Shown piece by piece: positions 7,089 to 27,504 of a stretch of DNA of 28,488 bases. Origin of the DNA: a virus; IMG/VR virus record IMGVR_UViG_3300025646_000238, positions 1 through 28,488 of that record; one strand, 5' to 3'. Under the pieces are notes generated by a model that worked only from the letters and a program-made list of their open reading frames with translations, was not told where the DNA came from and searched no databases. The translations under genes were made by a program, and so were the position numbers. Each line of letters begins with the position of its first letter. Position 1 is the stretch's first letter.

Positions 7089-7484
7089 ATGGACACAGCA
7101 AAGCTGGTTTCAGCGTATATCCGCCTTCGCGACGCTCGCGCCGATCTCAAGCACAAGTTTGATGAGGAAGATGGCGCGCTCAAAGAGAAGATGGACACCA
7201 TCGAAAACGCCCTGCTCGATCTTGCCAAAGAGCATGGGCTGGAAAGCATGAAAACCCCGTACGGCACTGCCTCTCGTGTGGTGCGTACTCGGTATTGGGC
7301 CCCTGACTGGGACTCATTCAAAGACTTCTTGCGGGAGCAGGGGGAGGACGGCTTCGACCTAGTTGAGCGCCGGATTCACCAAGGCAACTTCAAGGAATTT
7401 CTGGAGAACCATCCAGATGTGGCGCCGCCTGTCAATTCCGACAGTCGGTATTCAATCGTCGTGCGAAGAGGTAACAAATCGTGA
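7089..7484 (+). CDS. Conserved phage protein with N-terminal coiled coil, function unknown
   Basis: A 131-aa acidic protein. Residues 1-55 form a charged, probably coiled-coil helix (LRDARADLKHKFDEEDGALKEK..., written here only in part), followed by a small conserved region containing YWAPDWDSFKDFLRE, VERRIHQGNFKEFLENHPD and a C-terminal strand SRYSIVVRRG. I recognise this layout from replication-region proteins of other tailed phages, but know no assigned activity. The helix-plus-small-domain form recalls host-nuclease-inhibitor (Gam-like) or gp5.5-type binding proteins only superficially. The ATG at 7089 has an AGAGGT site. The stop overlaps the next GTG start (GTGA), so it is coupled to the HTH gene. 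Confidence 0.75.
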   Translation: MDTAKLVSAYIRLRDARADLKHKFDEEDGALKEKMDTIENALLDLAKEHGLESMKTPYGTASRVVRTRYWAPDWDSFKDFLREQGEDGFDLVERRIHQGNFKEFLENHPDVAPPVNSDSRYSIVVRRGNKS

Positions 7485-11952: not shown

Positions 11953-11979
11953 GCCCCCTCCTTGCGAGGGGGCTTTTTT
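11953..11979 (+). terminator. Rho-independent terminator of the left (replication) arm
   Basis: GCCCCCTC (11953-11960), a CTTGC loop and GAGGGGGC (11966-11973) make a perfect 8-bp GC-rich stem followed by six Ts (11974-11979). This is a textbook intrinsic terminator for + strand transcription. The last Ts overlap the stop codon of the converging giant gene. On the - strand the same stem is not followed by Us, so it would stop that transcript poorly, though it could protect its 3' end. Confidence 0.9.
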
Positions 11980-14900
11980 ACATGTTGATGAACTTCCGCA
12001 TGCCCTTCAGATCAAGGCTCTTCAACAGCTGACGCTCATATTCCTGCAAGTCCTCGATAATCTGGCGCTTCTCGGCTGGATCTACATCACGCATATTCGT
12101 AACGCGCTCCTGCTGCTTACGTATCTCACCAAGTTTCTTGCTCAGGTCACGCATGGTTTTAGCCATCGCCACCTTCTCAAGGTTGCTGTCCCTAGCGAGG
12201 AACGGATCGAGAGAATCTGGGTCGTTCGCCTGAATGTTCAGGTAGGACTTGTAGGCGGTGTTCACTTCGCGCGCCATGTCGTAGTACATCGCGCGCATGC
12301 CTGAGCCGTATTCTTTGTTGATGAAGCGGCTGAGGCCGGGGAAAGTAGCCATCGTGTCTTGGAAGCTCTTGCTCGGGCGTACGCCTTGCAGCGAGCCAAA
12401 CATATTAGAACTCCACAATACTGCACCAGCCGCCGACCCGAAGGTGCCACGCAACCAGTTATCCAGTTTGATCGGGGAAATATCTAGCCCTTCACCGATT
12501 AGCTTGGACAGTTCTGACGTGTACGGGCTGTACTGCAAATACGGCTCAAGGTCAGCGTAACGCTGGCTGACAAGCTGACGGCCAGTGTAGAAGTTGTAGT
12601 CCAGCAGCCACTCAACAGTTGGCTTAAAGATTTGCGGGACGGTAGTCGGGCTGAATAATGCGTGCTGGAGCGCCGTGCTAACGGAACGCTTAAATGTTTC
12701 AGCATCTTCAGTCGCGGAGTCCATGCTCAACCGCACCATGTGCTCAGTCAGAATCTTCGGCAGCAGGAACAAGTCAGTACGGAGCGGAATGCCAAAGCCG
12801 CCAGTGCCCGGAATCATCAACATACGGTCACGCATTGGGCCGTCCAACTCTTCGTAATCGTCGTCACCGGACATCAGCATGGAGTACATATAGGTCATGG
12901 CAACAACCATGCCCACATTCTTCATCAACACACCCCACTGCGCTTTATTGCGTGGAGAGATGCCTTCACCAGCCAGCACGTTCATTTGAACATTCAACGC
13001 CTGTAAGTAGGCGTTAAAGAACGGCACCGTGCGAGCCATAAACTGAACGAATGACGAAGAACCCTTGCGGCGGAAGTTAATCACCTCAAACGCTCTTTCG
13101 ATCGCTTCGGCCTTGCTCACGCCATCCGCCAGAGATAGGTCATAAATTGCCTGACGCACGGCGTTATCCGAGGCCATTGAGAAGTGTTCAGCGGAACGGA
13201 GCGCCTTGGTCATAAACCCAGCGCGGTTCGGACGCATATTGGTGGCAAAGCGCTCCATCTCCTCACGCACCACAGCCGCACTGTAGTCTTTTACCCCAAC
13301 AGTGCCGTAGCGGGTCAGTTCTTCGTGCGCTTTACTGGTGCCGTTCAGGGTCTTAACGAACTCTTTAATCACCTTGAACGGCAGCTGAATCGCCTTCATC
13401 GGCGGCAGGCCGGATGAGAGCATCGCACCGAAGGAGTCCTGCGTGAGCTGGCCGAGGGAGAAGATCGGGTTGAGTACAACGGATTTACGGAGCAAATTGG
13501 TGAACTTGGCCGCCATACCGAGCATCGGGATGCCCGCAGTCTCCATACCAGAGAAGGCTTCTAGCCAGACCGGATCATCAGCAACGAACTCAGTCTTTTT
13601 GCCATCCACCCAGATGAACGCACGACGGGCCTTTTCATCAGGGGACACAGCCACTTTCTGCTCAGCCATGCCCAGACCAACCATCTCGCGCATCATCTGG
13701 CGGGCGGAGTTGTTACGCACCGCAGCCTCGATGTAGTACTCAGTCCAGCGAGCCATGTTGTCGAACACGTTGTTGACCGGGCGGTCGGTGCCCTTCAGAC
13801 GCTTACGATCTGGTGCAGAAACTAAGCCGCTGATGTACTCGCGTGGGCCCTCACCAGCTTCGATCTGGGTCTGGCGGTAGAACGGAACATAGTCAACATT
13901 GTCCAGCCAGATTTCTGCTTGTTCCGCAGAAACCATTCCAGATTGCTCTACGATCTTCATCGCGTTCTGGCGAATCTGATTCCAAGTTTCAGCAATCTGC
14001 TCGACTTCTGGATACTGCTCAGCAATCTTCAGGCCAGCGTTAATCTGCTCCAGCGACTTATGCACGCGGGTGCGTTCGCCGGTCTTTTTGTTTTTCGGAA
14101 GATAAATCTCTTGTAGGCGCTTGGCTTCCTTGATGTCGCCCGGACGACCACGCTTGCGTAAGGACTCAACCCGACGCTGGATAAGGATTTCTTCCTTACG
14201 GATGCTGTTAAGGCGGGCAGCTTCCAGATACGTGTGCGCCAGAGACTCACCCATCATCATGTCTAGGCCGTTCTTCTCGGCCATGATCTGAATCTGTTTA
14301 ATCAGCTCAGGGAAGTTGGCAGCGCTTTCTTCTGCGCGCCACTTGTATGCCTGCTGGTCGTATTTCAGGTCGCCCAACTCAAGGAACTTACTAGCCAGTG
14401 CCTCGGCGTGGTAAGCCTGCGAGGTTGACATGTTTAGGGCACGACCGATGATTTCAGCTTCATTGTCAGTCATGGCACGAACACGACGGCGGGCTTCGCG
14501 TTGAGCGGCTGCATCAGCCGACAACATCCTAGTTACTGCCTTGTCGATCAGGCTGCGGCCATCGTTCGCAAAGTCCTTCTTGGTCTTCGGAACTTTGTTG
14601 CCTTGAGCATCTTCCTTGTGGGAATACTGCTTGACTATTTCTTTGGCGCGCTCGGTGCGGGTAGTGGCTGAATCGTCGACAAACACCTCGTTGCCAGCAC
14701 CGTTGACTAGGCGTTGGGCCATCTCCATAGCCTTCTTGTTGATGCTAAATACAAGAGTTGGCTCTTCAGGATTCAGAATATCCTGATATTCACGGATGAT
14801 GCTGACTGCTTCAGTGAGGTCTTCCTTGCTCTTCGATTTGCGAAGGATCTTCAGAGCGTCAGAAATAGCTTGATAGTCTTCACCCTCGTCTTTAGCGAGC

Positions 14901-17900
14901 TTGATGAGCTTGGCCGCCTTTCTACGCAGAGCCTGCACCTGCAACTCAAAATCAGCGTATTCAGCAACAACACTGTCAGTATCGTCTAGCGTGAAACCTT
15001 CCACATCGCTCATGTCGATGTCGTTGATGTAAGTAACGCGAGGGTCCCACTCTTTCTCACGCTGGCGAAGGGATTTGATGAACCCAGTAGCATCGACATA
15101 CGGGAACGCACGTTTTTGTGTTCTGGTGCGCACGCGCTCAACCGCCGCTTTAACACGAGCAATGCCCGGTTCCTCACCTTCAACTCGTTGCGGTCTAGGA
15201 AGTACTTCTTCGATGGCTTCCGCCGTGCGGACTTTCTGCTCACGCTTCTTAGCCGCTTCCGGCGCACGTTCCACTTTGTAGGCGCTAGGAAGTTCGTCTC
15301 TTTGACGGCGCTGGTCCGCCTCAGCCTGCGACTTCTGCACCTCTTCAGCGACCATAGCCTTGATGCGGGCTTCGGCCTCAGCTTCAGCTCGGGCGGCTTC
15401 TTCCACCGCTTTTTGCTGCCTTTCAGTTACCGCTTTAACCGCAGCAGGTGAGGCTTCTTCTCGGAATATAGCGTAAGCCCTGCGGCCAACTTCTCGGTTA
15501 GCCTCGATGATGTCTTCCCTAGTAACAGGGTTGAGGTCCGAGTAAACCTGATCTATTAAGTCACGCATTTCGCTGGCGGTAGTTCCAGCGATAGGCTTTT
15601 TGAATACTCGCTGGTGCATGGCTGTGATGCCACGCATGGCGTTGTCTTTGCCTGCTTCTATTTTAGACTTAGTAACTTCGCTAACGCCCACTTCTGGAGT
15701 CGCTTCGGAAACGGCTTCCTCGGGTCCTGCACGAACGCCAGCAGGCTCTTCGCCCACTCTAGTAGTAGGCTGGACAGCAGGCTCACCAGTAGGCTCCACG
15801 ACAGCTTCCGCAGCAGCTTTTGGCTTAACTCTTTTAGCTTGTGGAGCAATGACGTTATACGCATTGAGCAACTCCGTAAATGCTGTGTTGGCCTCTAGGC
15901 CGAGGATGTCAGCGATCGCTTGAACAAATCTAGTCCAAAGTGAGCGGCCCTTATACTGAATGGAGTTTAAGTAGTCCTGAAACTTCGTATCCGACATACC
16001 ATCAGATATAAACTCGTGGATGGTTGTGAACCCATACATATCGGCTCTACCATCTTTTTTAGCGATACCACGAGTGTACCGATACAGATTGTCTAAACGT
16101 TTAACCGCCTCTCTCTGGGCTTTAGTGCGTGGATTTTCTATAACAGAATGCGTAGCGTGGTGCGTTAACTCATGCGCAGCAGTGCGGAACCACCCTTCTT
16201 TCATGGCAGTAAATTCTTCGCGGGTTACGTTCTGCTGATAAACTCCGTTAGGACCTTGGCGGATTGCCTCTAGTAGAATGTTAGCGAAACTAACATTCAA
16301 CCTGACTTCTTTCTTTTTGTAGTCGTACTGCCCTATGGCATTTCCCGTATCACGCAGGGTTATAGAGGTCGGGGGGTCGATCATTGCACGACGAGCAACT
16401 TCAGCAATTAACGGATCGTATGAACGGCTAATAAGTTCTAAAGCGCCGTTTACGTCCCCAGCCTTAAACAGGTTGAGGAGGCTTACAACATTCTCGTCGC
16501 TTGTGTGGTCGATAGTCTGATCTAGTGTAGAGGGCTCTCTTCCAACTCCTCCAAAGTCTCGTACAGTAGCGCCGCCACCGCGTGCCACTCCTCCCGCTTG
16601 AGGTGCCGTAACCCCCTCGGCGGCACCGGGCTGGGGCTCAACTCCAGCCACCGCCACGCCCTCGCCAGCTGGCTGCTGGACATCGGTAACTTCCGGTTCG
16701 ACACTCGGAACACCACGTACGGGTACTGGTTCTTGGGCAGCTTCACTCGGTACTCCTTCAAACGCCTGAGCCACTTGCTCTGGACTGTACTCAGATTCAG
16801 CCAGCGAACGAATCGCAGCTCGCCCTGCTTCATCAGTTGAGCTGTTGTAGAGGTCAACATATTCCTGAAGCCCAATCGGTAAAGGTTCAGACGGCTGCAA
16901 ACCGGTGGGTTCTTCCACTTCCTCAGCAACTACAGGAGCAGCTTCTGGGGCGGCGGCAACTTCTGGGGCGGCGGCAGCTTCTGGGGCGGGTTGGGCGATA
17001 GCAGCTACATCGGCGTCGTAAGTAGAGTCAAGGCTCAGCTTCAGTTTGCTCCGCATGATGCGGTCTACCATAGCCCCACTCGTGGTCTTGTCTAAAATAT
17101 TTTCTAGGAAGTCACGGGCGCCAACACGACCTTCAGGCGTGCTCAAATCAAACTGGGCAAGTTGATCTTTTGCTTTACCTTTTAGCTTTAAGTCCTCGAT
17201 TTCTGGAGTGATCTGAGGGGCCGCAGCAGCCTGCGCCTGCTGCGCCTGCTGCATTTTGGAAACAGTTTCGCCGAGCAACGCTGTTTTTAGTGCAGGGTCT
17301 CTAACGCCGTTAATGCGAGCACGAGCGTTTTCACGCAGCTTGCCTGCTTTGCGAAGAACTTGATTAGCGTTCTTGGTCGCACCTTTGGCTCTAAGTTGAG
17401 CGGCACGGTGCTCATACGCATCTGCTTGTGCGTTCAGATTACGCACAATGGCTGACTCTACCGCGTCTGCCCCAGCCTGCTCGTCGGCCTCGTTAGTGGC
17501 CTTCTTGAAGTTAGTACGGGCAATAGTTACTGCCGCACTGGAGTCTTGTACGCGCTGCTGAATTTCAGCAGTGGTGTCGTCCTGCTCCGCAAACGCAATA
17601 TTAGACGCAACCCCAGTTTTACGATCTGTGCGGCCAAGGCCGGTAGTCGAAGTCTTAACGCCGTAATCAGCGTCCGTAGCATCAAGTTCTTCTTCAGCGC
17701 CTTCTGGCTCTATAAATTCTTGGCGGATCGCCTTCTGGGCGGCCTGCTGGGCAGCGCGCTCTTCGCGTTCTACCTGACCACGGGCTGATGCGCGTTGCGC
17801 AACACCACCCACACCACCAAGCGGAGCAACACCAGCGATAGTAGCTGCAATGACTTCTTCGTATTCGCGATTGGCTTCTGGGCCAGTAAGCGGAAGATTT

Positions 17901-18733
17901 GCCGCTTGGCGTTCAAGGACAGTCTGAGTAAGTTCAACTGGAACTTCCGTCGCGATACCGACTGCGGCACCTTTACCGGTAGTTTTAAGTATCCCTTGCT
18001 GAGCGATGCGTTTGGCAGTTTCTTCTGCCACTTCACGGCCTTCAGCCCCCAACAACTTGTTGATGCCCGGAACATAACGACCGATTACACCCAAACCGAG
18101 ACGCTCAGCACCAGACTGGAGCCCTGCATAACCTAAAGTCTCAAGCGTACCCGGCATTTCTGGTGGAGTTTCACCACGGGCGATGGCGGCTTCGCGCTCA
18201 GCTTGCTGGCGCTGTACATCTTCACCGTAGAAATAACTAAGGGCTGGAGCTGCAATGGCACCAGCTAGACCGGCTATTGGCTTAAGTTGCGGGAGTGGCA
18301 TCAGGGCCGCGCCAGTTTTAGCGCCAGCCCATGTAGTAGCGGCGTACGGAGCAAGACCACCCAGTACCTGTCCAGATTGCTCGCGGAGGAATCGTCCAGT
18401 AGCAGAAAGACCTTCGCCAAGCCCTTCGTCGTATGCGGCTTTAGTCTCTTCCCAGCTTATTGGCTGATAGCCCTCAGTCTGCCCGAACTCTTCACCGGCC
18501 TTCGCAAGCCCTTCTAAACCGGTAAGTTCACCAACGCCAAACAAACCTGTCCCGACCGCTTGGCGGAAACCTTGTTCAACACCGGGAAAGAAGCCTGTTT
18601 CTTGTGGAGGGGCAGAAGGGGTGGACGCAAGCTGCTGTTGGAGAATAGCCCATGCTTCGTCTTCCGTTGCACCTTCAGGCCCATCGACGACATATTCTTG
18701 GCCCTCTGGAGAGCGAAAAACAAACTGGGGCAT
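11978..18733 (-). CDS. Giant polyvalent/ejection protein with HExxH zinc metallopeptidase and LPD38-like region
   Basis: A 2251-aa protein, the last and largest of the virion arm. Residues 1-37 (FVFRSPEGQEYVVDGPEGATEDEAWAIL, quoted only in part elsewhere) form a small domain found at the start of many phage internal virion proteins. Residues about 123-168 are hydrophobic and Gly/Ala-rich, possibly membrane-active. Residues 340-800 are low-complexity and helical. A zincin motif HELTH (His854, Glu855, His858) with a likely third ligand Glu907 in HEFISD marks a metallopeptidase. Long helical segments follow. The region about 1750-2000 (LNPIFSLGQLTQDS, ARTVPFFNAYLQALNV) matches the large polyvalent-protein LPD38 pattern. 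Such proteins are packaged and injected with the DNA. I see no transglycosylase motif of the T7 gp16 type. The ATG follows AAGGGAAAAAC. Confidence 0.88.
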   Translation of the reverse strand: MPQFVFRSPEGQEYVVDGPEGATEDEAWAILQQQLASTPSAPPQETGFFPGVEQGFRQAVGTGLFGVGELTGLEGLAKAGEEFGQTEGYQPISWEETKAAYDEGLGEGLSATGRFLREQSGQVLGGLAPYAATTWAGAKTGAALMPLPQLKPIAGLAGAIAAPALSYFYGEDVQRQQAEREAAIARGETPPEMPGTLETLGYAGLQSGAERLGLGVIGRYVPGINKLLGAEGREVAEETAKRIAQQGILKTTGKGAAVGIATEVPVELTQTVLERQAANLPLTGPEANREYEEVIAATIAGVAPLGGVGGVAQRASARGQVEREERAAQQAAQKAIRQEFIEPEGAEEELDATDADYGVKTSTTGLGRTDRKTGVASNIAFAEQDDTTAEIQQRVQDSSAAVTIARTNFKKATNEADEQAGADAVESAIVRNLNAQADAYEHRAAQLRAKGATKNANQVLRKAGKLRENARARINGVRDPALKTALLGETVSKMQQAQQAQAAAAPQITPEIEDLKLKGKAKDQLAQFDLSTPEGRVGARDFLENILDKTTSGAMVDRIMRSKLKLSLDSTYDADVAAIAQPAPEAAAAPEVAAAPEAAPVVAEEVEEPTGLQPSEPLPIGLQEYVDLYNSSTDEAGRAAIRSLAESEYSPEQVAQAFEGVPSEAAQEPVPVRGVPSVEPEVTDVQQPAGEGVAVAGVEPQPGAAEGVTAPQAGGVARGGGATVRDFGGVGREPSTLDQTIDHTSDENVVSLLNLFKAGDVNGALELISRSYDPLIAEVARRAMIDPPTSITLRDTGNAIGQYDYKKKEVRLNVSFANILLEAIRQGPNGVYQQNVTREEFTAMKEGWFRTAAHELTHHATHSVIENPRTKAQREAVKRLDNLYRYTRGIAKKDGRADMYGFTTIHEFISDGMSDTKFQDYLNSIQYKGRSLWTRFVQAIADILGLEANTAFTELLNAYNVIAPQAKRVKPKAAAEAVVEPTGEPAVQPTTRVGEEPAGVRAGPEEAVSEATPEVGVSEVTKSKIEAGKDNAMRGITAMHQRVFKKPIAGTTASEMRDLIDQVYSDLNPVTREDIIEANREVGRRAYAIFREEASPAAVKAVTERQQKAVEEAARAEAEAEARIKAMVAEEVQKSQAEADQRRQRDELPSAYKVERAPEAAKKREQKVRTAEAIEEVLPRPQRVEGEEPGIARVKAAVERVRTRTQKRAFPYVDATGFIKSLRQREKEWDPRVTYINDIDMSDVEGFTLDDTDSVVAEYADFELQVQALRRKAAKLIKLAKDEGEDYQAISDALKILRKSKSKEDLTEAVSIIREYQDILNPEEPTLVFSINKKAMEMAQRLVNGAGNEVFVDDSATTRTERAKEIVKQYSHKEDAQGNKVPKTKKDFANDGRSLIDKAVTRMLSADAAAQREARRRVRAMTDNEAEIIGRALNMSTSQAYHAEALASKFLELGDLKYDQQAYKWRAEESAANFPELIKQIQIMAEKNGLDMMMGESLAHTYLEAARLNSIRKEEILIQRRVESLRKRGRPGDIKEAKRLQEIYLPKNKKTGERTRVHKSLEQINAGLKIAEQYPEVEQIAETWNQIRQNAMKIVEQSGMVSAEQAEIWLDNVDYVPFYRQTQIEAGEGPREYISGLVSAPDRKRLKGTDRPVNNVFDNMARWTEYYIEAAVRNNSARQMMREMVGLGMAEQKVAVSPDEKARRAFIWVDGKKTEFVADDPVWLEAFSGMETAGIPMLGMAAKFTNLLRKSVVLNPIFSLGQLTQDSFGAMLSSGLPPMKAIQLPFKVIKEFVKTLNGTSKAHEELTRYGTVGVKDYSAAVVREEMERFATNMRPNRAGFMTKALRSAEHFSMASDNAVRQAIYDLSLADGVSKAEAIERAFEVINFRRKGSSSFVQFMARTVPFFNAYLQALNVQMNVLAGEGISPRNKAQWGVLMKNVGMVVAMTYMYSMLMSGDDDYEELDGPMRDRMLMIPGTGGFGIPLRTDLFLLPKILTEHMVRLSMDSATEDAETFKRSVSTALQHALFSPTTVPQIFKPTVEWLLDYNFYTGRQLVSQRYADLEPYLQYSPYTSELSKLIGEGLDISPIKLDNWLRGTFGSAAGAVLWSSNMFGSLQGVRPSKSFQDTMATFPGLSRFINKEYGSGMRAMYYDMAREVNTAYKSYLNIQANDPDSLDPFLARDSNLEKVAMAKTMRDLSKKLGEIRKQQERVTNMRDVDPAEKRQIIEDLQEYERQLLKSLDLKGMRKFINM
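16942..16995 (-). repeat. Three tandem 18-bp units coding an Ala/Pro/Glu linker
   Basis: The unit CTTCTGGGGCGGCGGCAA occurs at 16942-16959, nearly identically at 16960-16977, and partly at 16978-16995. On the - strand it encodes repeated APEVAA/APEAAA units in the giant protein, a flexible linker around residues 580-598, upstream of the metallopeptidase. The unit keeps the reading frame, so copy number can vary without breaking the gene. Confidence 0.85.
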
Positions 18734-18742
18734 GTTTTTCCC

Positions 18743-20650
18743 TTATCGTGTAGTTACAGACCATCCGGGCGGCATGCCGCCTCCCACTCCTATTTGAGGC
18801 ATCATGCCATACATGCCCATACTACCCAAGCTGTTCATAATGCTGTCGAGACGTTGTCTGCGCTGAGCTATTTCTAGCTGAATACGTTTTTGAGCGTCTG
18901 GCAGCGATTCGCCGTCTCTACGGTTCTGCATCGCATAATCCAGAGTGCTCATAGTCTTGATCTGGTCGTCCAGTTCCTTAGCCATTTTCAGCTGGAACTC
19001 TTGAGCGCGATACGGGCTGGTAGCTTCAGCAGCCACCTGAGCACGGCGGTATGCACCTTCCTCTTCCAGAAGCTTCTGGCGAGCTGCTTCGTCAGACTTA
19101 GCCGCTTCTGTGTAGGCTTTCAGGCCAGCGATTCCACCTTCACCGACAGAACCTAAGAAGTCTGGGTTCTTGCTTGCCATCATGCTGAGGCCAGCAGCCA
19201 TCAACGCGTTATTTAGGCTGCGGTCCTTTTTGCCTTCACCTTCATAACGGCGACGGAGGTAGTCTAAGTAATCGTCTTTAGCCTTACCACCTTCAGATGC
19301 AGAGGTAAATTTCTCTAGGGCTTGGTAGTAGGCCTCATCAGCGGCGGTCTTAGCACCTTCAGCTGCGGCGGCTTCTGCTTTTGCTTTTTCTTCAGCGGCA
19401 GCTGCTGCTGCGGCCTTAGCTTCTGGGGTGTTTGCTTTGCGCTCGTCTTCTCTACGCATGCGGTCTTCTTCGCGTTGTTCATACGCGTCTAACCGCTCCC
19501 TGCGAGCACCTGCCCGGTTGCCTTCAGGGCCTACATTTTCTTCAGCGCCCGGAGCACCAATAAGCCAGTTAATGCCGCGAGCCGTACTGAGACTGGAATC
19601 TGAGTCTTCAATCTCTCTGCGGTTAATACGAGCTTGTTCTTCCTGCTCCTGCCAGCGAGTGCGCATACCGCCCGACAACAAGTTCATAGCGTCGCCAATC
19701 ACCTGAATATCCGAGCGTCCGCCTACGTCATACCAAGACGGAGCATTTTCGGCCATTATCTGACGTGCTTCTTCTGCGCTCAGCCCAGCTTGTGTAGCTG
19801 ACGGGGGCGGCTCAGCAGCCTGTGCTGACGGCACAACAGCCTCCATCACCTGACCGAGGAACGGAACAGCACGCTCAGGGGCTGGGCCTTCTGGAGCCAT
19901 CAAGCCCGGAAGCCCTTCTTGGGTCGGAGCCACAGGCGAGAAGCCCGGAGCGTACTCACCGCCGCCCATCGGCATCTGCGGGGCAGTATCAAGCTGAGTC
20001 TCAGGCATAACTTCGCCACGACCGCCGCTACCATAATCACGGTACAGCGCAGGCCAGCTAGGACGGGCTGCTGGGGCAGCCTCTGCCGGAACATTAACGC
20101 CTGCACCTTTAACTTCGTTCTCATCCAGTGCACGCACGCGATTCGCGTACTCGACAATGCCTGCTTCAGACATATCGGTTGGAATTTCAGCACCACGGCT
20201 CTGCAAATAAGAGTACGCATCGGCTACTGGGTCTTCAGGCAGGAGGCGGAGTACGCCACCCTCTTGCAGCTTTTTAGTGTTTCGGCGGTCTTCGCCAACC
20301 ATCTTAGTCTTACTCGGAGGGCAAGACTTTTCGCCCGTTTCTGGGTTTGTCCAGCAGGCTTCAGCTTCACCTTTTTGGTAGCCAGTCATGCCGCCTTGAG
20401 CAAAACTCACCAGACCGCCGGAGGCCATTTGTGGGGCTTGCATAGGCAGTTGAGTGATACCACTCATAATCTCGTCAGCCACTGTACCTTCACCCTGCGG
20501 GGCTTGAGTTGACGCCTCATCACGCATCTTCTTGCGGCGCTGCATCTCAGACAAAACCAGATACTGCGGAGCGGAACCAGTCTGCATCGAGTCGAGCAGC
20601 TGGCGGTCAGATAAGTCTTTGAGGTCGTTTTGTAGCTTGACGATGTTCAT
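18743..20650 (-). CDS. Putative virion/ejection protein, helical with Gly-rich motif
   Basis: A 635-aa protein of the virion arm. The first 45 residues (LKDLSDRQLLDSMQTGSAPQ, then YLVLSEMQRRKKMR) are a small helical domain that I associate with marine phage virion proteins. A glycine motif ASGGLVSFAQGGMTGY follows near residue 76. Residues about 95-340 are Pro/Gly-rich and disordered, residues 385-440 are an Ala/Glu/Lys coiled coil, and the C-terminal 190 residues are helical, ending in a Gly/Met-rich tail. No catalytic motif is seen. Its place between another helical virion protein and the giant ejection candidate mirrors the middle ejection gene of P22-like phages, so an internal/ejected role is likely but inferred. 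The ATG follows AAGGGTAGAAC; the downstream giant gene starts 9 nt after its stop. Confidence 0.75.
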   Translation of the reverse strand: MNIVKLQNDLKDLSDRQLLDSMQTGSAPQYLVLSEMQRRKKMRDEASTQAPQGEGTVADEIMSGITQLPMQAPQMASGGLVSFAQGGMTGYQKGEAEACWTNPETGEKSCPPSKTKMVGEDRRNTKKLQEGGVLRLLPEDPVADAYSYLQSRGAEIPTDMSEAGIVEYANRVRALDENEVKGAGVNVPAEAAPAARPSWPALYRDYGSGGRGEVMPETQLDTAPQMPMGGGEYAPGFSPVAPTQEGLPGLMAPEGPAPERAVPFLGQVMEAVVPSAQAAEPPPSATQAGLSAEEARQIMAENAPSWYDVGGRSDIQVIGDAMNLLSGGMRTRWQEQEEQARINRREIEDSDSSLSTARGINWLIGAPGAEENVGPEGNRAGARRERLDAYEQREEDRMRREDERKANTPEAKAAAAAAAEEKAKAEAAAAEGAKTAADEAYYQALEKFTSASEGGKAKDDYLDYLRRRYEGEGKKDRSLNNALMAAGLSMMASKNPDFLGSVGEGGIAGLKAYTEAAKSDEAARQKLLEEEGAYRRAQVAAEATSPYRAQEFQLKMAKELDDQIKTMSTLDYAMQNRRDGESLPDAQKRIQLEIAQRRQRLDSIMNSLGSMGMYGMMPQIGVGGGMPPGWSVTTR

Positions 20651-20659
20651 GTTCTACCC

Positions 20660-21670
20660 TTAGCCCATATTGCCGAATGCGCCGAGGGCGGTGAGACCAG
20701 CGCCCGCAAGCTGCGTGCCGAGGCCAGCCGTCGGAGATGACTGAATAACTTCCTGTTGAACAGGTACTGGAATACCACGCATAACCGCGTTGTAGAACGC
20801 GATCTGCTGACGTTCGTAATCGCGAGCGTTGACGAAGTCTTGATACGCCTGATCCAACTGCGTCTGCGCCTGAGCTTTTTGCTCTGCACCAACAGCGTTC
20901 TGGAGGTTGATACGTGCGGTGTCCAACGTCTGCTGGGTGCTTGCCAGATTTTCCTGAGCTTGAGCCACTTGAAGCTGAGCTTGCTGTTTCTGCTGCTCGA
21001 ACTGAGCGCCGAATTGTTTTGAGGCTTCTGTAGCCTGCTCAGTAGCCAGACGTTGCTGAGCTTCAGTCTGTTGGAGTGCTTGTTCGGCACCAAATTGCTG
21101 CGCTGCCTGCTGGTATGCAGTCTGCATGCCGGTAGCCTGAATGTCAGCTAGGCGGTCAAGGTACTCACTCGCCATCGCACCGCGTTCAGCCCCTTCACGA
21201 CCACCACCAAAAGCGCCCGCTTTAACTGCTCGCGCAGCCTGCGCCGCGCGTTCACCGGCGTACTCTTTACCGGCTTCACGCTTTTGAACGTCCAGTACAT
21301 TTTGCATGTACGGAGACATGTACTTAGCTGCGGTAGCCGCATCAAAGGTGCCCGCTTGATACCCCGGAGTATAGGTAGTCGGTGCATAACTGGAGCCAGC
21401 TAAAGCAGTACTTACATCTGCCAGCCCCTTCTGAGCGGCAGCAATACCGCTCGGCGTACCCATACCAGCTACTTCAGTCTGAACCTGCTTCTGAAGCGGT
21501 TCAAAACCCGCTACACGATTGCCGCTGTAGGCTTGGTACGGAGTAATGGACTCTCTCTGAGTCCGTGCCATAATTTCCTTAAAGTACGGTTCTGCGTACT
21601 CAGGAAGGTTAGACTGATAAGTTGTAGCAGTTGTCTGCTGGGTGCCGCCACCGCCGCCGCCTTTACCCAT
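20660..21670 (-). CDS. Putative internal virion (ejection) protein, long coiled coil
   Basis: A 336-aa protein starting with a poly-Gly segment (GKGGGGGGTQQTT), followed by NLPEYAEPYFKEIMARTQRE, a YMSPYMQNVLDVQKREA helix and AVKAGAFGGGREGAE, all recognisable from helical virion proteins in marine podovirus-like genomes. Residues about 180-290 are a Gln/Ala-rich heptad coiled coil, and the last 35 residues are Gly/Ala-rich and hydrophobic (LGTQLAGAGLTALGAF), suitable for membrane insertion. No enzyme motif is visible. The probable role is one of the small ejected proteins that help form the DNA passage through the cell envelope; this rests on gene order and composition. A strong GAGGAG site for its ATG lies in the last codons of the upstream gene. 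Confidence 0.75.
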   Translation of the reverse strand: MGKGGGGGGTQQTTATTYQSNLPEYAEPYFKEIMARTQRESITPYQAYSGNRVAGFEPLQKQVQTEVAGMGTPSGIAAAQKGLADVSTALAGSSYAPTTYTPGYQAGTFDAATAAKYMSPYMQNVLDVQKREAGKEYAGERAAQAARAVKAGAFGGGREGAERGAMASEYLDRLADIQATGMQTAYQQAAQQFGAEQALQQTEAQQRLATEQATEASKQFGAQFEQQKQQAQLQVAQAQENLASTQQTLDTARINLQNAVGAEQKAQAQTQLDQAYQDFVNARDYERQQIAFYNAVMRGIPVPVQQEVIQSSPTAGLGTQLAGAGLTALGAFGNMG

Positions 21671-21673
21671 TTC

Positions 21674-22102
21674 TCACTCCTCATCCAGCGGTATAGCTGG
21701 CATCTGGAAAGTTTGCCAAATTGCCTTGTACCCGTGATCTTTCAGGGCTTTCTCCCAGCCAATTCTAGCCGAGGATTCAAGGCCATCACAGTGATTATCG
21801 CGCGCCCACCGTTTGAGCGTGTTTAACATCGGAGCTTTCCAAGTATCCAGCTCCTTGCCTGCCACAAACGGACAGGCTAAATATAAGGCTCTGGGATAAC
21901 GGATAAAGTGAGTAACCACCGTGCCCTTCACCCCTTCGTCGTCAAATGCAATCCACAGCAGCCAGTCGTAGCCGAGGAGATTGTCTTTAATATCCTCTAC
22001 TTCGTAGCGCCCGTAAGTGTATTTGGCAGCGCCTGCAAGATAGTCTTTAACTTGCGGCCAAATTGCGTCCACATGGTCGGGCGGAACGACTGAGATTTGC
22101 AT
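21674..22102 (-). CDS. GNAT-like acetyltransferase-fold protein
   Basis: A 142-aa protein whose order of elements fits the GNAT fold: an N-terminal strand QISVVPPDHVDAIWPQV, a middle sheet WLLWIAFDDEGVKGTVVTHF, a long helix (TWKAPMLNTLKRWARDN) and a C-terminal SSARIGWEKALKDHGYK segment, which resembles the end of GNAT domains. The usual acetyl-CoA loop R/Q-x-x-G-x-G/A is not clear, so it may be divergent or inactive. Similar proteins occur beside tail genes in aquatic phages. The ATG has an excellent GAGGA site at 5-nt spacing, yet lies 106 nt inside the upstream hydroxylase gene. It may modify a virion or host protein; no substrate can be named. Confidence 0.62.
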   Translation of the reverse strand: MQISVVPPDHVDAIWPQVKDYLAGAAKYTYGRYEVEDIKDNLLGYDWLLWIAFDDEGVKGTVVTHFIRYPRALYLACPFVAGKELDTWKAPMLNTLKRWARDNHCDGLESSARIGWEKALKDHGYKAIWQTFQMPAIPLDEE

Positions 22103-22815
22103 TTATCCTCCGAATAAAACTCTTTTTCCCATTTCTTGTGGCGGAAATACGGAATCCACACGTATGGGAACATACGGGACAGCTTGAGAACTGTCCAGTT
22201 TATCGCAGCCCACGGCTGCTTCATCGGGCGCATGATGTCTAAAAACAGCACCGCCCGGATTTCATCTGTCATATTCGCCGCAATGTGCTCGTAGGTGTCG
22301 TCAAATAGGACGGTTTTACCTTCTTCCCAGTGGTAGGTTTCACCCCCCACGACGAGCGCACACTGGTTTTTACCCGGAATCTTGACTCCGAGGTGCATGC
22401 GGAAAATCCCAGACCACGGGCCTTCATGCGGCATCAGCATCTTGTTCGGTCCCAGCACAGAAATGTAAGCCGAGATCACATACTTGTGGCGGTTCAGGAT
22501 CTCCATCGTCATCGGAGCAAAAGTCTGATTCCGCTTGAAGCTGATGCCTGCACCCTTGAAAAAGAACATCCGCCACTTGTCGTCGTTTGAGATGTACGTC
22601 TGATCCGGGGAAATGGTCTGGAATGGAGCGAAATCATCATACCGCTCCAGAATGCCTAGCAGCTCTTTCTGCACATACTCGAAGTTGTCTTCCAACTCCT
22701 TAGCTACTGCAAAGTAGTGCGGATCGTAGTACTTCTTGTCTCCGAGCAAACAATTCTCATGGAACGGCTTTTTGAGCAGACGCTCAACCCACAGAGTATT
22801 GATCTCGAAATCCAT
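21997..22815 (-). CDS. Aspartyl/asparaginyl beta-hydroxylase family oxygenase
   Basis: A 272-aa member of the Asp/Asn beta-hydroxylase group of 2-oxoglutarate/Fe(II) oxygenases. The double-stranded beta-helix core is clear: ISVLGPNKMLMPHEGPW carries the first iron ligand His130, then SGIFRMHLGVKIP, and FDDTYEHIAANMTDE carries the second ligand His177, followed by IRAVLFLDIMRP with Arg187 in the usual 2-oxoglutarate-binding place. As in the family, Gly occupies the position of the usual acidic ligand (PHEG). It would hydroxylate an Asp/Asn side chain or a related substrate using O2. It is coupled to the gene before it (TAATG). The last 35 codons overlap the GNAT-like gene in another frame. The position among virion genes suggests a virion or host-surface substrate, not proven. 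Confidence 0.9.
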   Translation of the reverse strand: MDFEINTLWVERLLKKPFHENCLLGDKKYYDPHYFAVAKELEDNFEYVQKELLGILERYDDFAPFQTISPDQTYISNDDKWRMFFFKGAGISFKRNQTFAPMTMEILNRHKYVISAYISVLGPNKMLMPHEGPWSGIFRMHLGVKIPGKNQCALVVGGETYHWEEGKTVLFDDTYEHIAANMTDEIRAVLFLDIMRPMKQPWAAINWTVLKLSRMFPYVWIPYFRHKKWEKEFYSEDKCKSQSFRPTMWTQFGRKLKTILQALPNTLTGATK

Positions 22816-24497
22816 TATGCTGGCATCATTTTCTTAGGATTAATTTCTTTACCTTGCTCGGTTGTGCCGGTGCGAGCCTGACGGATTCTGTCCATCATGC
22901 TGTACAACTGCTGAGCACCTGCGTCAGACGAGCCATTGCCGAGGTGGCTGACCACATCCGCCGGAACCACAAACTCACCATCGGACAGAGCAGCGGGCTG
23001 AGTACCGTCGATCGTCGCAGGGATGTCGTCGCTCATACCGTCACCGACACGGCCTCCGGTCTGGAGATAGCCGCCGTTGTAGTAGCCCTCTTTTTCAAGC
23101 TCTTTCAACGCTTGCTGGTTGCCCATACCGGTTTGCAGTTTGTCCACCAAAACATTATGGCGTTGACCGGCAGGGTCTACTTGCTCTGGCAGCTCAGCTT
23201 TTATTTGGGAGTTCAGCCCATTAAACATACCTTGTAGCAGCCCAGCCATCATGCCACCTTTACCACCAACTGACTTGTTACTGGATATGGTGTTGTCGTA
23301 TGGAATACGCTGCCCGTAGATGTTAGTGGTATAGCCAGAACCCGCCGCCGGATACGCAACACCCCCGCTCGCGTACTTTTGAACGGGGGCTGAATCAAAA
23401 GGGCGGCCACCCCCCATCAAGCCAACGATACCGCCAGCTTGGAAAATTGGAGCGCCGGTGTAAGGGTTGGTAGGCAGTGCCCGCCCAGCCCGCGCGTAAT
23501 TCGCTCGAATCAAATCTTGGTGCTCTTTAAGCGTCGCGGCTTTCTTAGCGTCACGAGCTTCTTGGCTGCGTTCAGAGTCCTCACGCATTTTTTGCTGTTC
23601 AGTCAGCGCCATCTGGCCTCCCACACCTACGGCACCCAGTGCCAGTGGGGTCTTCTGCTGTCCAATAAAATTGCCAAAATTCTCAGTTGAGGACATGACG
23701 TTTTTAGCCCCTTCCCACATTTTCGGGGCTTGAGCGTACTGACCAAATGCAGACGGTTCCGGCGGCACTCGATACCCTTGAAGCACGTCGTCTCCCGCCT
23801 GTAGCATGTTTTCTTGCGCCAGCATTTGAGCGTTAACATCTACCGGAGATGTTGGCCCCGGAGTAAGCCCTAGCGGGGAGCTGGACTGTGGCCCAATGGA
23901 CCCCGGAGCGTTATACGTTGGAGCTGGGCTATACATACCAGTCCCTCCCGGAGGAAGCCCCGGAGGAGTTGAGGTTGGCATATTAAGCATCGGGCTAGAC
24001 ATTGCACCGGGGGCAGTCGTAGCGGCTGGCGTAACTATGTTTCCAGACTGCTCCAATATGGCCAATTCCTGCGGGCCAAGCGCTTTAGCCGCGTCCCCCA
24101 AGCCACTAGCTGCTTGAGTAGCCGGATCTGCCGCAGCAGAAAGCCCTTCACCAAGAGCGGAGCCAGCACCAGCTGTAAGGCCCGCCATCAGACCTTGCTG
24201 GAGCGGATCGTCCATACCGCGAGCCGCAGCTTCAGCAGTACCTAGAGCGCCAGCAGTTAGGCCAGTGGCTAGGGCGGTTGAGCCAATCGTGCCAGCCAAA
24301 GCTGGAGCCAGCATCGGAGCCAGCAACGGAGCGAATAAAAACGCTTCTGGAAGGCCAGTATCCGGGTTGGTGGTCAACCCACGTCCGAACTTTTCATGGG
24401 CCAAAGCGTTCAAGCCTTGCAGCTCAGCGTCCGACACGTGCAGCAGGTGATTATCGCCGTAGCGGCCTTTTGCTGCGATATTCTGAATACCTTCCAT
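22815..24497 (-). CDS. Gly/Ala-rich virion protein with conserved C-terminal domain
   Basis: A 560-aa protein. After a short GRYGDNHLLHVSDAELQGL region and GLTTNPDTGLPEAF, residues about 51-115 are hydrophobic and Gly/Ala-rich (glycine-zipper-like), suggesting membrane interaction. Pro/Ser-rich linkers follow, then Gly motifs FQAGGIVGLMGGG and KYASGGVAYPAAG near residues 365-385. The C-terminal 80 residues contain GGRVGDGMSDDIPATIDG, ALSDGEFVVPADVVSHLGNG and AGAQQLYSMMDRIRQAR, a domain I know from tail or ejection-region proteins of many aquatic phages with no assigned activity. The ATG at 24497 with AAGGA 7 nt upstream is chosen over an in-frame TTG at 24521, which would overlap the previous gene and lacks such a site. 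Probably a structural or ejected protein. Confidence 0.78.
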   Translation of the reverse strand: MEGIQNIAAKGRYGDNHLLHVSDAELQGLNALAHEKFGRGLTTNPDTGLPEAFLFAPLLAPMLAPALAGTIGSTALATGLTAGALGTAEAAARGMDDPLQQGLMAGLTAGAGSALGEGLSAAADPATQAASGLGDAAKALGPQELAILEQSGNIVTPAATTAPGAMSSPMLNMPTSTPPGLPPGGTGMYSPAPTYNAPGSIGPQSSSPLGLTPGPTSPVDVNAQMLAQENMLQAGDDVLQGYRVPPEPSAFGQYAQAPKMWEGAKNVMSSTENFGNFIGQQKTPLALGAVGVGGQMALTEQQKMREDSERSQEARDAKKAATLKEHQDLIRANYARAGRALPTNPYTGAPIFQAGGIVGLMGGGRPFDSAPVQKYASGGVAYPAAGSGYTTNIYGQRIPYDNTISSNKSVGGKGGMMAGLLQGMFNGLNSQIKAELPEQVDPAGQRHNVLVDKLQTGMGNQQALKELEKEGYYNGGYLQTGGRVGDGMSDDIPATIDGTQPAALSDGEFVVPADVVSHLGNGSSDAGAQQLYSMMDRIRQARTGTTEQGKEINPKKMMPA

Positions 24498-24507
24498 AAG
24501 AAAATCC

Positions 24508-24834
24508 TTAATTGCGGTCAAGCTCTAGGTAAGACAAATAGAAATGTACCGTAGATTGGCTTGATTCTACAGTAATTTTGTCCGCCGCTTCCATGATGCA
24601 GGGGACGCCGTTGAACACGTCAACCGTGCCATCGGGGGAAATGGGGTAATCCTTGAGTAGATAAGTCTGCGTGGCGCCCTCGTATTGGGACACCGTGACT
24701 TCTGCGGCACTGGCGTTGGCATTGGTCACGCGCAAAGAACGCATGATCGCTGTATTTGCCGCCGGGACGGTATACAAGTCAGTCTCGGTTGACGCATCAG
24801 GGATCAGGTGTTCGCGGAAGTACTTATTAGCCAT
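24508..24834 (-). CDS. Small beta-sandwich virion protein
   Basis: A 108-aa protein rich in beta strands and small polar residues: TDLYTVPAANTAIMRSLRVT, then NASAAEVTVSQYEG, TYLLKDYPISPDGTVDVFNG and a last strand pair STVHFYLSYLEL. This pattern (YTVPA, IxxSLxVTN, TVxV) is common in small phage decoration or tail-associated beta-sandwich proteins. No signal peptide or catalytic motif is present. The start overlaps the upstream fibre-like gene by 8 nt, so the two are co-translated and may act on the same part of the particle. Exact location on the virion cannot be read from the sequence. Confidence 0.72.
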   Translation of the reverse strand: MANKYFREHLIPDASTETDLYTVPAANTAIMRSLRVTNANASAAEVTVSQYEGATQTYLLKDYPISPDGTVDVFNGVPCIMEAADKITVESSQSTVHFYLSYLELDRN

Positions 24835-25498
24835 GTTCGATCCCTTGGATCATCAGAGTTACAGACGGTGTACCGGGACAGAAGGACTCAGCAGCATAGG
24901 CTTCAAGTGAAGTATTCAAACTATCCGCCGCCCACATCGCTTCTAAATAATCGCCCTTGTCAACCTCAAAAATTGCGGCACGAGCGACAGTCTTGGCTTC
25001 GTCATTGTCGTGCAGGGTGATCCGCATCGTTGACCCCGCGATGTCTGTGCCATTGATTCGCGGCCAGAACCAGAATGTCTTTGCGTTGGCTGATTGCGAG
25101 TTAAGCTGTGCGGTGAAGTGAATGTAGTACTTCCCAGCCTTGGCAAACACAATCCGGCTGGTCGGCGAGCCGATGGAAATATGTTTTGAGTAAGCCGTTG
25201 TACCCCATGTAATCGCTTTAGCAGTGTCGACTACCGTTTGTGCCTGCGTATTGAAATCCAGAAACGCGCCGTAGGCAAAATCACCGTAGTCCTCCAGCAC
25301 GCCACGGTTCGCCATGCCCATCGCACCGGTAAACCAGTCGAGACTGGACTGATTATTTTCCGTAGCCTGCGGGGTGTACGTGGTATTTAGCTGATTTACG
25401 AGCAGGCGGATTGATTCCACCACTTGGTTAAACTTACGATTATCATAAGTTGGTGCCAACGTTGTTGGCGGTATCGGAAGATTGACGATTTTACTCAT
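24827..25498 (-). CDS. Putative fibre/decoration protein with C1q-like beta-sandwich
   Basis: A 223-aa protein. Residues 1-60 form an N-terminal helical attachment region (KFNQVVESIRLLVNQLNTTY). Residues about 75-215 resemble the jelly-roll beta-sandwich used in phage fibres and C1q/TNF-type modules: FLDFNTQAQTVVDTAKAITW, ISIGSPTSRIVFAKAGKYYI, HFTAQLNSQ, FWFWPRINGTDIAGSTMRI, and AAIFEVDKGDYLEAMWA. Such modules trimerise and often bind receptors or decorate capsids. The ATG overlaps the stop of the tail-completion gene (ATGA). Its position right after that gene supports a tail or head-tail fibre role; whether it is the host-receptor binder is unknown. Confidence 0.7.
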   Translation of the reverse strand: MSKIVNLPIPPTTLAPTYDNRKFNQVVESIRLLVNQLNTTYTPQATENNQSSLDWFTGAMGMANRGVLEDYGDFAYGAFLDFNTQAQTVVDTAKAITWGTTAYSKHISIGSPTSRIVFAKAGKYYIHFTAQLNSQSANAKTFWFWPRINGTDIAGSTMRITLHDNDEAKTVARAAIFEVDKGDYLEAMWAADSLNTSLEAYAAESFCPGTPSVTLMIQGIEHG

Positions 25499-27504
25499 CT
25501 GCGTCCATCCGGGCGTTGATCAATACGTGTGGCACCGTAGCGCCAGTCATCGCCAATACCATCGCTTTCAATACGCAGAGCCATTTGACGGCCACGGATA
25601 CGAGTATTAATTTTAGTGGTACCACTGCTAACGGTCCCAATTGTTTCTCTGGTCTGAGCGCCCAACGGGTAATCTCTGGTACGCATTTTTAATTTTAAAT
25701 CACCATTTAAGAAGAAATCGGGAATCACGCGACTAACTAGCATTTGGCTATCGCCTTCGCCTATATCAAATTCAGAAGACTGGATAAAAGAGGCCATTGG
25801 TAGGCCATCCGCATCCACGCCATACTCATGTAAATAAATGTAACCATCGCGACTGGTTGCAATCGGATAACGTAAAGATCCGCGGTTTTCCCATGCTGTT
25901 CGTTCTAAACGGCCAGTCCACCATGAATTTTCAGCTAAACTATACGACACATACCTGCACGATTCGAGAGCGTCAAGACCATTCGGTTCTGAAACAACAG
26001 CATCATCATCATGAGCCACTGCTGTTGATCCACGAATACCGCGCACACACCCGGTAAACGTGCTATCGGTTTTGCCAGTATAACTGATATACTCATTATC
26101 AATTAAAATTTCTCCGGAGAACCTATAGCCTGCCGTGGTATTGACCCTGATGGTCGTGTCAGATGCTGTTATAGCTCCATTAAGTTCGGTATCTTCAATA
26201 GTAACAGTCGGGTAGAACCAAGTAATCTCGTTGTATTCTTTATTTAGAGCCACAAAGATATTTCTTTGCTGCTGCATATTAATATTATCAAACACAAACT
26301 TTTGCACAGTGCTCTTCATCGGCAAAACGCCGCCACTATAAGCGTAAAACGACTTTTTGCCCATCCAATAAACTTCGGCGCCATGAGCAACCCATGCATT
26401 AGGCCCACCAATACCAGAGGCTACGCCCACTTTTTGGAATCCGAAGGTATAGGGCGGACCAATAAATTGCATTGAATGCACATCTTCATCGGTCCAGATA
26501 ATACACTGGCTTTCAAGAACTGCTGAAGAAAGAATTTCTGTTCCATTATCGATAAGATAATCACCGGCGGTATTGGTTACGGTAGGAGTCCAGTCCGTAT
26601 AATCTTCTTGTGAAGACCAACGGATTTGTAAGTTGTCCAGATCTGAAGCCGGTGCCCCCGGCTGGTTACATCCAAGACAAACTAAATGTCTATCATTAGT
26701 AACCATGACACGATTATTCTTTTGAGGCGCTTGGGAAATGATCGTCATTCTGGCTGTCGGGTTTGAAGCATCCCACAAATAGACGGGACCTTCACGAGGG
26801 CAAGTAACAAGATCTTCACCCCAATTGTCAATTGACCACACACGTGGATACAAACTGGTGTAGGCGGCCGTTCGAGGAGTGCCCCACGTACTAGCACCCC
26901 AAGCCCCCGAGCCAAAACCATAGCTGAAGATACCATTAACCGCGCCCGGGTTAATCTGATACTCAGCTGTTACGGTACCGCCTGCCGTTACACCCCCAAC
27001 ACTGGCAGGAGTGGTTACGGTTATTTCATATACGTTAGCGTTAACAATACGGGTAATTTCGTGTTCCGTATTAAATTCCGCGGCGGGAATACCATCAATA
27101 GCAGCGGCTACACCACTATACGTTACAAACGCCCCTAGCTGCGCACCGTGCGCCGAATGGGCTACTGTAATAGTCGTAGAGGCTAACGTTGTGGTAAATG
27201 GGTTCGTTAGACTTGCAGTTGTGCGAAGTGGAGTAACATCAGTGAGAACACCGCCGGTGTCTATGTAAAACTTGCTGCTGGTACTGTAAGCGGTGTATTG
27301 ATTCCCGTCAAGAACGCGCCATGTGTGAGTGGCACGGGGCACACCCTTCATGGGCGTGCTATACATTTTTATCCAACCGGCTAATTTTTCGGGTTTACCA
27401 GAGCGGAAACGAATTTTATCCGCGTCTTCCCAACTGCCTTCAGTAGAATACGGCGTATTTTCTTTATTAATACCGGGTTGAAAGTCCAGTTTCACTAAGG
27501 CCAT
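25495..27504 (-). CDS. Tail-completion / DNA-stabilisation-like tail protein
   Basis: A 669-aa beta-rich protein. The N-terminus (KLDFQPGINKENTPYSTEG, then WEDADKIRFRSGKPEKLAGW) is the signature of a widespread phage tail family annotated as tail or packaged-DNA-stabilisation protein, analogous to P22 gp10 or T7 gp12. Many WD-like short strands follow, as expected for a propeller-type hub. Two inserted small beta modules are visible: residues about 105-168 (STTITVAHSAHGAQ, EHEITRIVNANVYEITV) and about 441-506 (SGEILIDNEYISYTG, RGIRGSTAVAHDDDAV). It would close the portal channel or form the tail hub. This gene and the next one upstream are more AT-rich than the rest of the arm. The start lies 3 nt after the previous stop, with a G-rich site. 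Confidence 0.82.
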   Translation of the reverse strand: MALVKLDFQPGINKENTPYSTEGSWEDADKIRFRSGKPEKLAGWIKMYSTPMKGVPRATHTWRVLDGNQYTAYSTSSKFYIDTGGVLTDVTPLRTTASLTNPFTTTLASTTITVAHSAHGAQLGAFVTYSGVAAAIDGIPAAEFNTEHEITRIVNANVYEITVTTPASVGGVTAGGTVTAEYQINPGAVNGIFSYGFGSGAWGASTWGTPRTAAYTSLYPRVWSIDNWGEDLVTCPREGPVYLWDASNPTARMTIISQAPQKNNRVMVTNDRHLVCLGCNQPGAPASDLDNLQIRWSSQEDYTDWTPTVTNTAGDYLIDNGTEILSSAVLESQCIIWTDEDVHSMQFIGPPYTFGFQKVGVASGIGGPNAWVAHGAEVYWMGKKSFYAYSGGVLPMKSTVQKFVFDNINMQQQRNIFVALNKEYNEITWFYPTVTIEDTELNGAITASDTTIRVNTTAGYRFSGEILIDNEYISYTGKTDSTFTGCVRGIRGSTAVAHDDDAVVSEPNGLDALESCRYVSYSLAENSWWTGRLERTAWENRGSLRYPIATSRDGYIYLHEYGVDADGLPMASFIQSSEFDIGEGDSQMLVSRVIPDFFLNGDLKLKMRTRDYPLGAQTRETIGTVSSGTTKINTRIRGRQMALRIESDGIGDDWRYGATRIDQRPDGRR

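Follow-up and report, generated by a model that had tools for sequence, protein, structure and literature searches.

The region analyzed here comes from an uncultured virus of the tailed-phage type (IMG/VR record IMGVR_UViG_3300025646_000238), and we refer to the whole stretch of 28,488 bases as the window. The plus strand up to position 11698 carries early replication genes (endonuclease, DNA polymerase, helicases, exonuclease and primase). The late genes are on the minus strand, from approximately 28418 to 11978, and the virion module takes up more than half of the window. Between the two converging blocks, at 11953-11973, there is a strong hairpin with a run of T residues (GCCCCCTCCTTGCGAGGGGGC TTTTTT), which is likely a terminator shared by both. 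The early plus-strand block, away from the virion operon, also holds a small gene (7089-7484) with a match to phrog_13900, a "minor head protein" family (E 5e-21).

Within the late block, a gene for a putative hydroxylase (HYD) adjoins a gene for a protein with a predicted GNAT fold (Table 1). The first-pass annotation had placed both open reading frames here, and both are real, as indicated by a match to Pfam family PF05118 for one and by a structure model for the other. It had also described the pair as embedded in a virion operon, which agrees with the flanking genes for a stabilization/nozzle-like protein and a DNA-ejection-like protein. A relative of the former in Phage DSL-LC04 is annotated as a stabilization protein. 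The start codon of HYD overlaps the stop codon of the large upstream gene by one base. The product of this upstream gene had no family match in Pfam or PHROGs; in relatives without HYD, synteny places its counterpart directly against the GNAT-fold gene. Promoter-like sites near the HYD/GNAT pair were no more numerous than in shuffled sequence. The giant protein at the end of the operon has, in its last third, a distant relationship to large proteins from phages of Vibrio, Escherichia and cyanobacteria, the annotations of which vary (portal, methylase, polyvalent protein).

Table 1. Features of the late region of the window, in order of transcription
Feature	Position	Strand	Evidence and remarks
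Stabilization/nozzle-like virion structural protein	25495-27504	-	phrog_3287, E 8.1e-71
Large virion-operon protein, upstream of HYD	22815-24521	-	Synteny
Hydroxylase (HYD), Fe(II)/2-oxoglutarate, PF05118, OlsC/LpxO/AspH superfamily	21997-22815	-	272 aa, intact ORF
HYD C-terminal two-helix region, approximately residues 196-237, RPMKQPWAAINWTVLKLSRMFPYVWIPYFRHKKWEKEFY...	22105-22230	-	OlsC model match, sequence comparison, structure model
HYD/GNAT overlap: 35-residue HYD tail, in the other frame, over the start of the GNAT gene	21997-22102	-	Codon-position differences
GNAT-fold protein	21674-22102	-	142 aa, intact ORF; virion-slot gene, T7 gene 13 position
DNA-ejection-like protein, next gene after the GNAT-fold gene	20660-21670	-	phrog_4287, E 2.5e-17; synteny
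635-aa internal-virion-type protein	18743-20650	-	Downstream gene
Giant 2251-aa internal-virion-type protein	11978-18733	-	Downstream gene; distant relatives among large phage proteins

Judged by its sequence, HYD is a member of the PF05118 (Asp_Arg_Hydrox) superfamily, matching the Pfam model over residues 42-197 (E 3.9e-39; 134.5 bits compared to a cut-off of 22.6). Five of its residues, H130, G132, R139, H177 and R187, were invariant in 26 of 26 phage proteins. From the alignment with AspH, in which HYD residues correspond to H679, R688, H725 and R735 (positions named in the titles of AspH PDB entries), H130 and H177 are the predicted Fe ligands and R139 and R187 the predicted arginines for binding 2-oxoglutarate (2OG). 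The structure model of HYD (pLDDT 87.7) had AspH (5jqy) as its best solved match (Z 22.6), with helices at residues 202-213 and 217-233 of a core that comprises residues 1-237. In a comparison of nine clade members over the last part of HYD before the overlap with the GNAT gene, 1078 of 1582 pairwise differences fell on third codon positions. Because the differences are concentrated there, the reading frame is not a chance one, and the HYD core is under purifying selection. The GNAT reading frame shows a similar pattern and is not a chance one either. HYD had initially been called an aspartyl/asparaginyl beta-hydroxylase. The family assignment stands, but the sense of a protein hydroxylase came from the name, which belongs to the superfamily and assigns no substrate, and the best curated models are those of lipid hydroxylases.

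The HYD and GNAT genes overlap by 106 bp in the window and by 106 to 190 bp across the clade. The canonical HYD sequence ends at residue 237, right where the GNAT gene has its start codon, and the HYD frame continues past this point for 35 residues (approximately 63 in some relatives). Differences within the overlap numbered 277, 147 and 551 at codon positions 1, 2 and 3 of the GNAT frame, and 147, 551 and 277 at those of the HYD frame. Because the differences peak at its third positions, the GNAT frame is under ordinary purifying selection in the overlap. We rejected the 35-residue tail as a functional extension of HYD since the HYD frame varies most at second positions; the tail is an overprinted passenger, not conserved as HYD protein.

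The 142-residue product of the GNAT gene had no match in Pfam or NCBIfam, the ornithine acyltransferase model included. Its AlphaFold model (21 relatives) had a pLDDT of 87.9 and aligned with Gcn5 (1m1d) over 135 residues (VIA Z 14.4, rmsd 3.0), and as modeled the protein has a GNAT fold. The acetyl-CoA motif R/Q-x-x-G-x-G/A was absent from its expected place in 21 of 21 sequences, with one match elsewhere in a single sequence, and acetyltransferase activity is doubtful because this motif is missing. The gene belongs to a constant order (stabilization protein, small gene, large gene, GNAT, DNA-ejection protein) that was kept in 15 related loci without a hydroxylase. Over their whole records, which are mostly fragments, 14 of these 15 loci had no PF05118 match, and neither had the cultured phages HTVC023P, CRP-810 and CRP-902. 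The gp80 protein of HTVC023P, encoded next to late genes gp81-83, is homologous to the GNAT protein (hhalign probability 97%). Two annotated GNATs, CRP-810 gp40 and CRP-902 gp35, were rejected as homologues, as no sequence homology was detected.

A GNAT protein of cobaviruses (pc40 of SIO1), the fold of which has been reported, occupies a virion slot and has been compared with T7 gp13 (PMC6775973). The likeness to T7 is one of gene order: in the series 12-13-14-15-16, the gp13 slot lies between the tail/nozzle gene and the first internal (ejection) gene, as does the GNAT gene, and the cobavirus and T7 genes have in common with it a virion-operon slot beside internal or ejection proteins. Homology to T7 gp13 by sequence was rejected (hhalign 0.1%), and PF11090 (T7 gp13) matched neither the GNAT protein of the window nor its relatives. 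In this phage group, the GNAT-fold gene belongs to the core of the virion operon, where its position is that of T7 gene 13; its product probably has a part in assembling the virion and little if any acetyltransferase activity. This part of the locus is therefore ordinary: a supposed auxiliary acetyltransferase is removed and an assembly protein is indicated.

The first-pass annotation had regarded the two genes as coupled and as a candidate two-gene system for virion modification. In seven of eight records that carry a hydroxylase in other arrangements, the GNAT gene was in its usual slot, kilobases away from the hydroxylase gene. Because the GNAT slot is fixed without HYD, and HYD lies elsewhere in these seven phages, the two genes are independent, and we are confident that they do not constitute a coupled system. 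An insertion at the junction between two genes, rather than a shared function, accounts for their tight linkage in the window. The proposed two-gene system is contradicted by this synteny and by the missing acetyl-CoA motif. It had been suggested to check whether the pair keeps its position in related phages; we found the GNAT gene to be fixed and the hydroxylase gene to occur in at least four slots. The accompanying premise, that phage oxygenases usually occur with metabolic or early genes, fails for the Pelagibacter phage HTVC023P, with three 2OG-Fe(II) oxygenases in its virion operon, and for Phage DSL-LC04, with a 2OG-Fe(II) oxygenase among its tail genes.

We found at least 80 relatives of HYD in viral contigs, many of them near copies. 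Among the matches listed, HYD and its relatives were encoded within a packaging or virion module, in the orientation of the virion genes, in all 81 loci. The positions within these 81 listed loci varied: approximately 53 were between or next to the genes for TerL and portal, often followed by a PurM-like gene; approximately 11 followed a giant virion protein and preceded a lysozyme-like gene; 12, including the window, had the arrangement described above, before the GNAT gene and the ejection protein; and approximately five preceded an SU10-like adaptor. HYD is a mobile cargo gene of late modules that has no constant partner. The late position itself is not strong evidence of function, because the virion module is so large a part of the window and there were only about four to six independent insertions. 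Late expression is consistent with a role in the virion and with a role in the envelope alike. The phage collection yielded distant matches to HYD only, namely LpxO-like genes in records for Salmonella, Escherichia and Acinetobacter, as well as a gene from Pseudomonas phage Itty13.

Two further observations concern these loci. Within the clade of the window, HYD is approximately 72% identical, compared to approximately 55% for the flanking GNAT protein, 35% for the ejection protein and 33% for the stabilization protein, a difference that may reflect lateral spread or stronger constraint. In approximately 20 loci (for example, L062, 8528-9217), a gene labeled "ferredoxin" in PHROGs adjoins the hydroxylase gene between those for TerL and portal; cyanophage and pelagiphage records name this gene PurM or ferredoxin. 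We dropped a ferredoxin as redox partner of HYD because the PHROGs label covers phage proteins annotated as PurM.

The best NCBIfam model for HYD was OlsC (NF052565; 179.4 bits, E 6.9e-53, model positions 37-253 of 259), followed by LpxO (NF033391; 108.6 bits, E 2.9e-31). Both scores are below the equivalog cut-offs, which are 450 bits for OlsC (a genuine member scores 499.6) and 500 bits for LpxO, and the 179 bits are suggestive only, because generic PF05118 proteins reach approximately 80-140 bits with the OlsC model. The C-terminal region of the phage proteins has the pattern INWxxLKxARxxPYFxxPxxRHKxWEKKFY, which corresponds to proteins on the OlsC side (e.g., LLNWLVLWAIAYSPFISDAKRRHNDWEKRF). 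HYD and OlsC have in common the HxGP motif, the second His, an Arg and a C-terminal region ending in WEKxF. They differ in that OlsC has HRGPY where the phage proteins have HEGPW, and in that the latter form a phage-only clade encoded in late modules. LpxO belongs to the same superfamily, but it has HxD (HRDPYAG; HRD in the annotated LpxO of L201 and L202) in place of the HxG (HEG) of HYD, and its C-terminus continues differently and is hydrophobic. The catalytic core of human AspH is 24% identical to that of HYD over 189 residues, with the HxG, the second His and both arginines aligned; OlsC and AspH both have the HxG motif. However, the AspH chain ends before the OlsC-type C-terminal region that HYD has, and a Pfam search of the 272-residue HYD found no match to the TPR substrate-binding domain of AspH.

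There was no OlsC or LpxO structure among the matches listed in the fold search, in which AspH was the closest solved structure. In the trees, the phage proteins formed a single clade (support 100/99); the deep branches were weak and did not place its sister, and AU tests rejected none of the groupings with AspH (p 0.20), OlsC (p 0.275) or LpxO (p 0.35). The ranking of the OlsC and LpxO models and the C-terminal region are suggestive of the lipid-hydroxylase side for HYD. OlsC has been established by experiment as an ornithine-lipid acyl hydroxylase in Brucella microti and Ochrobactrum (PMC5767591). The gene for the closest plasmid-borne relative of HYD (38%) adjoins that for a CDP-alcohol phosphatidyltransferase, with an acylglycerol kinase gene and lptG nearby; other bacterial relatives had mixed neighbors that gave little support for a lipid function.

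The reading that we prefer, though we hold it to be slightly short of an even bet, is that HYD is an enzyme of the OlsC/LpxO type that hydroxylates a lipid of the host envelope late in infection, with the GNAT gene independent of it. HYD would be a late-expressed cargo gene that inserted just upstream of the GNAT gene in one clade, and its product would most likely be a cytoplasmic, membrane-facing Fe(II)/2OG dioxygenase; from knowledge of the family, we infer both the Fe(II)/2OG/O2 chemistry and the association with the membrane face. Transcribed together with the virion genes, it would hydroxylate the acyl chain of a lipid in the host envelope, perhaps lipid A or an aminolipid (ornithine lipid, for instance). 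The envelope would be changed before lysis, and we speculate that this could act against superinfection or premature leakage. A late change of the host surface, which the first-pass annotation had mentioned, is in this respect a live option for HYD, but not as part of a joint system with the GNAT protein. A wider proposal, which we put forward more tentatively, is that a phage-specific OlsC-like clade, carried in several late slots by uncultured aquatic phages, comprises lipid acyl hydroxylases that remodel the host envelope before lysis and that have been filed as protein hydroxylases.

AspH hydroxylates Asp and Asn residues in EGF-like domains. HYD might likewise modify a virion protein (a tail, ejected or capsid protein) post-translationally, with its operon position reflecting its target. 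The confinement of all 81 listed loci to virion or packaging modules would fit such a role, as would the closeness of AspH in structure, the HxG motif and the AU test. Nonetheless, we consider it unlikely. A lone virion target is less likely because HYD has no constant partner, the neighbors being TerL and portal, a giant protein and lysozyme, an adaptor, or the GNAT and ejection proteins; the TPR domain is missing; and the curated models and C-terminal region point to lipids. We favor lipid hydroxylation over modification of a virion protein, the substrate being one that we infer.

It is also improbable that HYD is an auxiliary metabolic enzyme that acts on a small molecule (a free amino acid, nucleotide or peptide metabolite) or simply consumes 2OG. 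The wider fold takes in proline and nucleoside hydroxylases (4p7w, 1e5r and 7v4f), and in two reports phage 2OG oxygenases are listed among the genes for metabolism or DNA repair (PMC3037559, PMC11288001). However, these structures were far weaker matches (Z 12-14) than AspH (Z 22), and the curated models rank lipid hydroxylases first. Finally, a two-step modification of virion or surface by HYD and the GNAT protein, or a miniature pathway resembling OlsB plus OlsC, could draw on the overlapping adjacency of the genes in 12 loci including the window and on the presence of a GNAT-fold gene somewhere in 13 of 14 hydroxylase phage records, but is highly improbable given the GNAT genes that occur without or far from a hydroxylase, and a GNAT protein with neither the acetyl-CoA motif nor a Pfam match.

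Aspartyl/asparaginyl hydroxylase genes have been reported in pelagimyophages (PMC7029224), CRP-810-type roseophages (PMC11288001), Limnohabitans phage DC33 (PMC12195039) and cyanophages (PMC3037559). In the accessible portions of these reports, they are taken for protein hydroxylases or for auxiliary genes of a general kind, with no lipid reading or late-module pattern. The complete CRP-810 sequence had no PF05118 match. A literature search for phage OlsC or LpxO, with a coverage that leaves out most subscription journals, returned nothing relevant. Phage "aspartyl hydroxylases" are already known as auxiliary genes, and the reading of the HYD subfamily as phage-only, late-module and OlsC-like may be new. 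If the lipid reading is true, the genes of this subfamily that are listed as aspartyl hydroxylases would encode enzymes tailoring membrane lipids, made together with the virion. Phages would then have a way, open to testing, of changing the host envelope late in infection, and the case would warn against inferring a substrate from the name of PF05118.

One locus bears on the nature of the host. A 61-kb contig binned as marine Euryarchaeota (L099; PBMQ01000020.1) carries phage-type genes for TerL (96% identical), hydroxylase, a PurM-like protein and portal (89% identical). It may be a mis-binned phage contig or a hint of an archaeal host, and an archaeal host, if real, would count against an acyl-lipid substrate.
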